A stretch of 37,926 bases of DNA from Candidatus Adlerbacteria bacterium. GTDB lineage: Bacteria > Patescibacteriota > Minisyncoccia > Phycocordibacterales > SBAW01. Every line of letters begins with the position of its first letter. Position 1 is the stretch's first letter. A program made the position numbers and the translations under genes. Below, piece after piece: positions 35,323 through 37,926 of this stretch. The notes beneath the pieces are model-generated. The model did not search any database. It saw nothing but the letters and a program-made list of their open reading frames with translations, and was not told where the DNA came from. The stretch covers positions 1 to 37,926 of the forward strand of contig CAIJFH010000010.1 in NCBI GenBank assembly GCA_903819895.1. Direction: 5' to 3'.

Positions 35323-35871
35323 TTAGATATGACGATAGCGACCCATCCCCGCCTCAAACGCCTCGGTAAATAGTTTCTCGAGTTGTTGGCTCACTCCGGC
35401 GCATGCATCAGCAACTTTTTTGGCACCAACAATGTAGTCGACGCTCTCGAGCGGGTCGGTGTCGAGCAAGACGCCACTCCCCACCAGCCGCACATTGGAG
35501 ATTTGATCTGCAATTTTGACTCGCTTTGCAGAAGCACTCTGCCCATGCACCCGCAGTGCCTGCTTGTCCTTGCACTCTGCCACCGACAAATCCTTAAACT
35601 CGACCGGGTCGGTGAGTTCGTTGATGAGTTGCCACACCTCGTCGCCAAAGAGTGCTTTGATGTCGTCGAGCGTTGTTGTGGTGTGCTCAACTGTGTCGTG
35701 CAGCCACGCGCCGGCGATCTCTAGCTGTGTGCCACCCGACTGTTGCACCAGCTCGACCACCTCGGCGACGTGGGTGATATAGGGCACCTGCCGCGCATCA
35801 CGCCGGACCTGGCCCTCGTGGGCCTTGTTTGCAAACTCCATCGCCTGCGCGACGACATCTTGGTCGGTCAT
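35323..35871 (-). CDS. HD-domain protein, RelA/SpoT hydrolase-like
   Basis: A 182-residue HD protein related to the one at 19225-19782. It has His34 in YITH, His58-Asp59 in AWLHD, and Asp122 and Asn126 in IADQISNV, but VEHT (Glu62-His63) where the (p)ppGpp hydrolases have Glu-Asp. That change may alter the substrate or activity. There is no synthetase domain. ATG 35871 is exactly 6 nt after TGCTATACT, which discards an upstream in-frame ATG at 35982 that would run through the tRNA-Leu gene. It is the first protein gene of the murD unit, linking a stringent-response-like enzyme with cell-wall synthesis. Confidence 0.75.
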   Translation of the reverse strand: MTDQDVVAQAMEFANKAHEGQVRRDARQVPYITHVAEVVELVQQSGGTQLEIAGAWLHDTVEHTTTTLDDIKALFGDEVWQLINELTDPVEFKDLSVAECKDKQALRVHGQSASAKRVKIADQISNVRLVGSGVLLDTDPLESVDYIVGAKKVADACAGVSQQLEKLFTEAFEAGMGRYRHI

Positions 35872-35877
35872 GCTACA

Positions 35878-35886
35878 AGTATAGCA
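35878..35886 (-). promoter_or_regulatory. extended -10 promoter, leaderless, for the HD/murD unit
   Basis: TGC-TATACT, then 6 nt (TGTAGC), then ATG at 35871. It lies between the tRNA-Leu 3' end and the HD gene. Confidence 0.6.
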
Positions 35887-36134: not shown

Positions 36135-36566
36135 ATGAGCGATTTACTGCCGACACTCATCGCTGCCGTACGGACCAGACATGGCCACGAGCGCTGGGAT
36201 GTAGTCGACACACGCGCGGCCGTAGCCGCAAACGACCCAGACGTTATCAACTGGGCGCTGTGTGTCGGCATCAAAAACATCGACGCTCGGTTGCGCGAGC
36301 TCGCGGCACTACTACTGTGCCTCACCGATCGAGCACTTGAGGAACTTGTGCCACTCATGGCGCAGATCGTCGAGACAGACGCGAACATCCGTGTGCGAGG
36401 ATATCTTGCACTCGCGCTCTGGATGCGAATGGATCTGGCTGGACAGACAGAGCATCTGCGTCAGATAGTTGATGTCGCGCTGGCCGACCCAGAGATATCA
36501 TCGCCGGTCAAGCAACATTTTCTTCGATGCCGTCGGGAGACGCGACCGGAGGAGGTGTTTGCCTGA
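36135..36566 (+). CDS. small alpha-helical (HEAT-repeat-like) protein
   Basis: A 143-residue protein, apparently all helical. Pairs of amphipathic helices such as DPDVINWALCVGIKN/DARLRELAALLLCL and ALEELVPLMAQIV/NIRVRGYLALALWM match the pattern of HEAT or ARM repeats, which usually bind proteins or act as scaffolds. I do not recognise a specific family. It has a purine-rich AAGGGGG 7 nt before the ATG, unlike most genes here, a structured leader and an excellent terminator, so it is a separate unit on the + strand. Confidence 0.65.
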   Translation: MSDLLPTLIAAVRTRHGHERWDVVDTRAAVAANDPDVINWALCVGIKNIDARLRELAALLLCLTDRALEELVPLMAQIVETDANIRVRGYLALALWMRMDLAGQTEHLRQIVDVALADPEISSPVKQHFLRCRRETRPEEVFA

Positions 36567-36670: not shown

Positions 36671-37081
36671 TCACCGTGTCTTAAAAAATACCTCGAGCGC
36701 TCGGACGTATTGCGGAAACATCGATATGTGCAGCAAGTCGTTTTTATCAATCCACTTCATTTCAGCAATCTCAATATCATGTGGACGAAACTCCTCTGCA
36801 GGACTGACCAGCGTTGCATGATACGCAAGTAACACATGCGGCACGTTTCCTCGTGGATGCACAAACGTCTCGGTATATACCACTCTACGCATTTGTATAC
36901 CCACACCGAGTTCTTCTTGTATTTCTCGTCGCAAACCATCCTCTAACGACTCATTCGCGTTTAAGCGACCACCTGGCAATTCCCATGTATCATCATCGCG
37001 GACATCTCGCGTTACAAGCACTTTACCATCTCGTTCAATAATCGCCTTTTGTGCAATCTTGCCAACAAAATGTTCTTCCAT
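36671..37081 (-). CDS. Nudix hydrolase
   Basis: A 136-residue Nudix protein. The Nudix box starts at residue 37 (GGRLNANESLEDGLRREIQEELGV) with the metal-binding REIQEELG complete; WELPGG precedes it. Size and layout fit small pyrophosphohydrolases of the MutT group acting on nucleoside diphosphate derivatives; substrate is unknown. The ATG lies only 1 nt after the 3' end of tRNA-Ile, so tRNA processing would leave a nearly leaderless mRNA (see findings). No separate promoter is visible. Confidence 0.85.
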   Translation of the reverse strand: MEEHFVGKIAQKAIIERDGKVLVTRDVRDDDTWELPGGRLNANESLEDGLRREIQEELGVGIQMRRVVYTETFVHPRGNVPHVLLAYHATLVSPAEEFRPHDIEIAEMKWIDKNDLLHISMFPQYVRALEVFFKTR

Positions 37082-37082
37082 G

Positions 37083-37155
37083 TGCGGGCACTTGGGGTCG
37101 AACCAAGGACCTTTCGAGTATCAGTCGAATGCTCTACCAGCTGAGCTATGCCCGC
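37083..37155 (-). tRNA. tRNA-Ile (GAT)
   Basis: A 73-nt tRNA. Acceptor GCGGGCA pairs with TGCCCGC; D-arm GCTCAGCTGGTAGAGC; anticodon stem TTCGA/TCGAA with loop CTGATAC gives GAT; T-arm GGTTCGACCCC. CCA is not encoded. It lies 443 nt downstream of the 16S 3' end, the usual place of tRNA-Ile in a bacterial rrn operon. Confidence 0.95.
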
Positions 37156-37598
37156 ATAGCCGCAAAACGGCATGTGCGCATACTAACAAAGAAAATCAAT
37201 TCTGCACAGGGCTTGCATATACGAGGGCTTTGTGAAATCATGACGCTTCGGCTCTTTTGAAACGGGGGCCGTGCGAACCAACGGAAACTAGCCGCGCAGT
37301 TTCCTGCGCGGCATCTTTTTATTCGCATCAAAAAATCGAATCGTTGTGAACCTGTTTTGCAAGAAGAGAGAAAAACACCTTTCTCTTGTTCCGTTTGTTA
37401 CCCATCGGTTCGCCTTGTACTCAGGGCGTTGGATGGGTCATCTCCTCCCTGTCGCGTATGGGAGGCGTCTACCCGAAGGCAGACAGCGGATACAATATAT
37501 GATTAGTATCATCATCCTTCTTTATCTTTCGAATTCGAAAAGACAAAGAAATCGCCACTTCACCCAACAGTGCTCTTGCGAACCCTGAAGGGGTATTT
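37156..37598 (-). other. 16S-tRNA-Ile spacer with three hairpins, no gene
   Basis: A 443-nt gap with no convincing gene. Three inverted repeats can fold: 37518-37550 (TTCTTTATCTTTCGAA with its near-perfect reverse complement), about 37430-37475 (CCTCCC/GGGAGG within a longer stem) and about 37360-37388 (CAAG-AGAGAAA with TTTCTCTTG). They could be RNase III-type processing stems. A + strand terminator lies at 37291-37320. Confidence 0.5.
37291..37320 (+). terminator. intrinsic terminator on the + strand in the rRNA spacer
   Basis: GCCGCGCAG (37291-37299), loop TTTC, CTGCGCGGC (37304-37312), then ATCTTTTT. Oriented against the rRNA, so it would stop antisense transcription before the 16S gene or end a small unseen + strand RNA. 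Confidence 0.75.
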
Positions 37599-37926
37599 CA
37601 TTGAATTATTCCACGAGCAGCTTCCGCTACCCGTGCCTTGTTACGACTTAGTCCCTGTCACCGAGCTTGCCGTGAACCAGATTGCTCTGGGCTTCGGGCA
37701 CTCCCGGCTCCCTTGACTTGACGGGCGGTGAGTACAAGACTTGAGAACGTATTCACCGCTGTATAGCTGACCAGCGATTACTAGCGATTCCGGCTTCATG
37801 AGGTCGAGTTGCAGACCTCAATCCGAACTGGGCACTCGTTTATAAGGATTGGCTCAGGGTTACCCCGTCGCGACCCGTTGTCGAGTGCATTGTATCATGC
37901 GTGCAGCCCAGGATATCAAAGGGACA
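37599..37926 (-). rRNA. 16S ribosomal RNA, 3' part (cut by the window edge)
   Basis: The last about 328 nt of 16S rRNA. Conserved blocks on the - strand include GAATACGTTCTC, TACTCACCGCCCGTCAAGTC and AAGTCGTAACAAGG, and helix 45 is GUAGCGGAAGCUGC with its GGAA tetraloop (37617-37630). The 18 nt after helix 45 read UCGUGGAAUAAUUCAAUG, where E. coli has GGUUGGAUCACCUCCUUA, so the CCUCC anti-Shine-Dalgarno is absent. The 3' end at 37599 is set by alignment with E. coli and is approximate. Confidence 0.93.

Follow-up and report, generated by a model that had tools for sequence, protein, structure and literature searches.

A Nudix hydrolase gene beginning one base after tRNA-Ile(GAU) in Candidatus Adlerbacteria: probable release of a leaderless message by tRNA 3' processing

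Candidatus Adlerbacteria is a lineage within the Parcubacteria. The window, by which we mean the whole stretch of DNA analysed (37,926 nt), carries on its minus strand the end of a 16S rRNA gene, followed by an extended -10 element, a gene for tRNA-Ile(GAU) and a gene for a Nudix hydrolase (Table 1). The junction between the last two reads ...TGCCCGC A C ATG GAA GAA, such that A73 and C74 are directly followed by the ATG and the CCA end of the tRNA is not encoded. The initial annotation had placed a single base between the discriminator and the start codon, and on the minus-strand sequence this geometry is exact; the 5' end of the tRNA, which it gave as 37157, lies at 37155. Rfam and ARAGORN report the tRNA as 37083-37155 and 37082-37155, respectively, because ARAGORN includes C74. 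Convergent to the Nudix gene, an open reading frame of 143 amino acids without a Pfam match occupies positions 36135-36566 of the plus strand.

Table 1. Features of the tRNA-Ile/Nudix locus and of an in-window comparison gene; positions are those of the window.
Feature	Positions	Strand	Remarks
16S rRNA gene, 3' end	37593-37649	-	Reads ...GCTCGTGGAATAATTCAATG, without the anti-Shine-Dalgarno CCTCC; Rfam RF00177 at 37599-37926
Extended -10 TGTTAGTAT	37180-37188	-	Probably drives tRNA-Ile and, by inference, Nudix; the -10 hexamer, TAGTAT, occupies 37185-37180
tRNA-Ile(GAU)	37083-37155	-	Discriminator A73 at 37083; RF00005 (72 bits) and ARAGORN
C74	37082	-	Sole base separating A73 from the ATG; C75 and A76 not encoded as such
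Nudix hydrolase gene	36671-37081	-	136 amino acids; ATG at 37081-37079; open reading frame, PF00293 (E 2e-16), N-terminus kept in orthologues
Extended -10 TGCTATACT	35878-35886	-	Precedes the HD-domain ATG by six bases; in-window comparison
HD-domain gene (PF13328)	35323-35871	-	After tRNA-Leu(CAG); own leaderless-type promoter; outside the Nudix unit

The product of the Nudix gene matches PF00293 with 60.7 bits against a gathering score of 21.1 and possesses the Nudix box GX5EX7REUXEEXGU, in the form GGRLNANESLEDGLRREIQEELGV, which places it among the Nudix hydrolases. Counted from the methionine adjoining the tRNA, its orthologues begin M-x(3-11)-FVG-x2-AQKAI, and there is no alternative in-frame ATG, GTG or TTG before codon 21, which itself falls within the domain. 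Since the N-terminus is conserved from the first methionine and no other start precedes codon 21, the annotated ATG is very likely the true start; a later in-frame start, which had been named as an observation that would overturn the initial proposal, is thus unlikely. Upstream of the ATG the same frame reaches a TGA in the anticodon arm of the tRNA, with no start codon between the two. The first 12 codons are identical between the window's genome (G000) and G015, a degree of synonymous-site conservation that is no more than suggestive (p ~0.08). The 3' arm of the tRNA contains no Shine-Dalgarno-like motif, and an ATG one base past A73 leaves no room for a leader carrying one, as expected of a leaderless gene. 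The start region is unstructured.

We surveyed the junction in the 30 genomes of the genus whose tRNA-Ile could be located. The Nudix gene starts 0 nt after C74 in G000, G015, G026 and G028, 1 nt after it in G017 and 2 nt after it in G025; in G034, where CCA is encoded, it starts 10 nt after C74. Conservation in relatives, a check put forward with the initial annotation, therefore takes the form of a start codon 0-2 nt past C74 in six genomes of the genus. Abutment is found in only seven of the 30 tRNA-Ile loci, and the abutted Nudix proteins are approximately 40-83% identical to the window protein where the search matched them. Although an ATG is expected at any one given base with a chance of about 1 in 64, the junction goes beyond chance because a conserved gene begins at this ATG and because the junction recurs, at 0-2 nt after C74, in the five relatives of G000 listed above. 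The juxtaposition of tRNA and Nudix gene is genuine; it is conserved and belongs to a wider pattern. The abutted copies do not form one group on the Nudix tree, where at least four changes are required, and the abutted state has therefore been gained or lost repeatedly; its distribution over the tree shows no clear clustering, since 99 of 500 shuffles gave an equally low number.

Away from the tRNA, the Nudix ATG lies mostly about 6 nt past a -10-like box, as in TATACT-TTTCAT-ATG at locus L004 and in similar form at L008, L012 and L006, and the gene remains near tRNA-Ile even in genomes where it has its own promoter. No TANNNT was located 9-16 nt before the Nudix ATG in the six genomes with 0-2 nt abutment. 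The earlier view that no promoter separates the two genes thus holds for promoters of this type, and the Nudix gene, lying directly after a same-strand tRNA and having no promoter of its own, can be described as tRNA-punctuated. Upstream of tRNA-Ile, an element of the form TGnTANNNT occurs within 60 nt in 22 of the 30 same-genus loci, where shuffled sequences gave an expectation of 2.1. The extended -10 block between 16S and tRNA-Ile is conserved in G000 and G015 and the leader after it diverges; G026 and G034 have no clear -10 close before tRNA-Ile. Since tRNA-Ile has its own conserved promoter, transcription of Nudix is most simply explained from there, and the two genes are very likely co-transcribed. 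The suggestion that Nudix expression is tied to rRNA and tRNA transcription is consequently supported in its tRNA half only, dependence on an rRNA promoter not being needed.

At its 3' end, the 16S rRNA gene of the window reads GUGGAAUAAUUCAA in place of GGAUCACCUCC. CCTCC is missing from the 16S 3' ends of all 81 order genomes with a match (147 scanned); G329, a further genome of the order, has a normal 16S end on a single contig that may be a contaminant, and in other classes of the phylum CCTCC is present in the three loci seen. Downstream of helix 45, a second anti-Shine-Dalgarno was looked for and no consistent feature was found; helix 45 is followed by a short TTCAA/TTGAA palindrome. The 16S trailer (37480-37592, minus strand) is conserved in the genus by alignment and looks structured, containing hairpins and the block CGGCGAT...GATAGTGCTAA...TTGCACTCG. 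Despite 16S rRNA without CCUCC, Shine-Dalgarno-like pentamers stand at the classical distance before 6-17% of starts in G000, G034, G023, G042 and G145. In the literature searched, which was largely open-access, we found no account of anti-Shine-Dalgarno loss in Patescibacteria, CPR or Parcubacteria.

Leaderless transcription is expected to leave a -10 box at a spacing of six bases from the ATG, which genes of the host often show. Among 368 genes of G000, TANNNT peaks at position -12 from the ATG with 54 occurrences against 5.3 per background position. Similar values were obtained for G034 (48 against 5.5) and G023 (51 against 7.0), the peak being weaker above background in G042 (57 against 12.2) and G145 (30 against 13.1). 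In the control genome G591, which has an anti-Shine-Dalgarno, the excess is weaker (25 against 15.1). Within the window, the start of the HD-domain gene reads TGCTATACT-TGTAGC-ATG. Based upon these signals, translation in this order appears to be initiated mostly on leaderless mRNAs.

No protein scoring above the TIGR02651 cut-off for RNase Z was detected in 35 same-genus genomes, 29 of which are at least 90% complete, and the window's own genome likewise gave weak matches only. The weak matches have scores of approximately 17-31 bits, and the best per genome mostly lies in a frame the size of RNase J (600-700 amino acids). RNase Z, to which the cut had originally been ascribed, thus loses its place in the scheme, as the host does not seem to encode a recognisable one; a very divergent enzyme may be present. 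C74 is encoded in 117 of 117 tRNAs from five genomes of the order, while the full CCA is encoded in about a quarter (25 of 98). In the control G591, 11 of 18 tRNAs encode C74. A CCA-adding enzyme is present (130 bits). The universal C74 suggests that the tRNA 3' end is made beyond A73. With a cut after C74 the Nudix mRNA would start exactly at the AUG, which we consider likelier than the start at CAUG previously predicted from a cut after A73. The tRNA-Ile(GAU) gene is the sole such match in the window's genome and its precursor must therefore be processed. Propionibacterium acnes is without tRNase Z, has many leaderless mRNAs and cuts its tRNAs between C74 and C75 (PMC3848588), and the bldA tRNA of Streptomyces coelicolor is cut within CCA (PMC4681348). 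RNase J, RNase III and PNPase are retained in CPR genomes (PMC12641178).

Abutment recurs within one genome, G000 possessing three cases, at tRNA-Ile, tRNA-Val and tRNA-Thr. In G000 and G030 the arrangement tRNA-Val-CCA-ATG opens a pseudouridine synthase gene (PF00849), the G000 case being on a 5-kb contig that is possibly a contaminant. In G000 and G026, tRNA-Thr(CGU)-CCA-ATG opens prfB. Directly after CCA we also found tsaD (G016) and a gene for an ASCH/DUF3850 protein (G019). The two tRNA-Val loci, L132 (G000:C30:152) and L097 (G030), specify the same protein and have different upstream flanks; tRNA and gene may have moved together, or contig C30 could be contamination. The gene prfB follows tRNA-Thr(CGU) across the order, abutted past CCA in L134 (G000:C20) and L095 (G026), and in L254 (G042) it lies behind its own TATACT-N6-ATG, at the second ATG.

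Across 397 genomes of the order, 22 tRNA-Ile genes have an ATG 0-3 nt past C74, and 11 of these open a reading frame of at least 80 codons; eight such frames begin 4-11 nt past C74, in twice as many positions. Shorter distances are favoured only modestly (11 of 19, p 0.024), among genomes that are not independent of one another. Reading frames of this length within 0-3 nt were found in 11 of 397 genomes inside the order and in two of 363 from other classes of the same phylum (Fisher p 0.023), in a survey whose statistics ignore relatedness and in which frame length stands in for a gene. The number of ATGs after tRNA-Ile is close to that expected by chance and only the share opening long frames stands out; since ATG counts after tRNAs are not above chance, our argument is not based on them. 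Apart from Nudix, the adjoining frames were named by eye, and some of them resemble nucleotide-sugar dehydrogenase, MurA, MurD-like ligase and glyoxalase. The MurD-like ligase follows tRNA-Ile at 0, 8 and 4 nt past C74 in L284, L296 and L303, from three other families of the order, and the window itself has a MurD-like gene 1.7 kb downstream. Several tRNA genes (L041, L082, L079 and L088) are directly preceded by palindromic elements, for example GCTCGCGNNGCGAGC or AAATGAAA...TTTCATTT. At G000:C31:22192-22263 (L031), ARAGORN reports a tRNA-Ile with the anticodon TAT, which is unusual in bacteria.

We propose that tRNA-Ile(GAU) and Nudix constitute one transcription unit, read from the extended -10 promoter of the tRNA (37188-37180), and that Nudix has neither a promoter nor a Shine-Dalgarno sequence of its own. 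The tRNA would be parted from the Nudix RNA by some endonuclease, not RNase Z, whose cut most likely falls past the encoded C74, and the CCA-adding enzyme would complete the tRNA end. The 5' end of the Nudix RNA would then be the AUG or one base before it, and ribosomes without an anti-Shine-Dalgarno would translate this leaderless message. Co-transcription, the cut and its position, the enzyme and translation of the product are deduced here from features legible in the DNA, namely the geometry and its conservation, the missing -10 box, the tRNA promoter, the missing anti-Shine-Dalgarno, the leaderless signature, the want of a recognisable RNase Z and the CCA-adding enzyme; we regard the model as a whole as reasonably probable. 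Weighing against it are the small share of abutted tRNA-Ile loci, the modest distance preference, ATG counts close to chance, the want of a clear -10 before tRNA-Ile in G026 and G034, and the minority of genes that retain a Shine-Dalgarno-like motif. Of the initial proposal, the production of a leaderless Nudix mRNA by tRNA processing is retained as the best-fitting model, because the genes of the host look leaderless and its 16S rRNA has no anti-Shine-Dalgarno, with the lack of a usual promoter and the kept junction in agreement; the assignment to RNase Z is abandoned.

The most serious competitor, whose chances we put somewhat below even, is neutral compaction, by which processing may occur with no selected coupling of the Nudix level to that of tRNA-Ile, the Nudix promoter having been lost because read-through from the tRNA was enough. 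In its favour are a small genome, the four or more changes required by the Nudix tree with no clear clustering (99 of 500 shuffles as low) and the many different genes that adjoin tRNAs, but a junction held at 0-2 nt over deep divergence, and the nearness of Nudix to tRNA-Ile even when it has its own promoter, speak for more than this. Ribosomes might also start at the AUG beside the folded tRNA on a two-gene transcript, no cut being required and the tRNA being matured later or from other transcripts. The unstructured start region and the independence of this order from Shine-Dalgarno pairing would permit it; however, a stable tRNA fold one base from the AUG would lie in the mRNA entry path, and the precursor of the sole tRNA-Ile(GAU) match in the genome must be processed, which makes this improbable.

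Cleavage by RNase Z after A73, yielding a message that begins with CAUG, has in its favour that this is the usual enzyme for CCA-less tRNA precursors in other bacteria and that a C is present at 37082. It becomes very improbable given that the 35 same-genus genomes yielded only weak, mostly RNase-J-sized matches below the cut-off and that the universal C74 suggests a 3' end past A73. We give almost no credence to a promoter within the tRNA gene or to initiation at a later codon: the one weak promoter-like match within the Nudix gene (37065-37038) is about the number expected by chance, the usual -10 site is empty in six genomes, MxxxFVGxxAQKAI is conserved from the first methionine and the earliest alternative, codon 21, is within the domain. 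The preferred model, a cut past C74 by another endonuclease, could be extended to tRNA punctuation throughout this order without an anti-Shine-Dalgarno, in which a putative endonuclease would cut all tRNA precursors past C74 and so supply the genes located there, prfB, tsaD and Nudix among them, with ready leaderless messages, a mitochondrion-like logic of separate origin in bacteria. This extension is speculative and we rate it as rather doubtful.

If the model is true, bacterial tRNA processing makes mRNA 5' ends in the mitochondrial manner but through another enzyme, and metatranscriptomes should contain RNAs that begin with AUG, or with CAAUG after tRNAs whose CCA is encoded. It would link three traits in one large uncultured order, namely loss of the anti-Shine-Dalgarno, leaderless promoters, and absence of a recognisable RNase Z together with a universal C74; no joint description of these was found in the literature searched.

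Bacterial tRNA-mRNA operons, for example thrU-tyrU-glyT-thrT-tufB of E. coli, likewise have a single transcript of tRNA and protein gene that is split by tRNA processing, but the mRNA of the classical operons retains a leader with a Shine-Dalgarno sequence, for which there is no room here. The promoter-made leaderless mRNAs of Actinobacteria (PMC4633059, PMC4681348) resemble the proposed message in that the AUG is at the 5' end or adjoins it and in lacking a Shine-Dalgarno; their 5' end is a transcription start, whereas here it would be a processing site bearing a 5' monophosphate or hydroxyl. P. acnes and S. coelicolor (PMC3848588, PMC4681348) make an endonucleolytic cut at C74 and employ a CCA-adding enzyme, as we propose here, and P. 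acnes similarly has no recognisable tRNase Z; no protein start has been described at their cut, and the cut in the present lineage is a predicted one. The closest parallel in layout is the animal mitochondrion, where mRNAs lie directly 3' of tRNAs, are freed by tRNA processing and are leaderless (for the anti-Shine-Dalgarno point of this comparison, see PMC10582724). It differs in that the present case concerns a bacterial genome with many promoters, in which only some genes are punctuated and each tRNA has its own promoter, and in that mitochondria use RNase Z (ELAC2), an enzyme not recognised here. The tRNA/Nudix arrangement thus adds to known tRNA punctuation, most likely as a case in which tRNA 3' processing by an enzyme other than RNase Z would yield a leaderless message.
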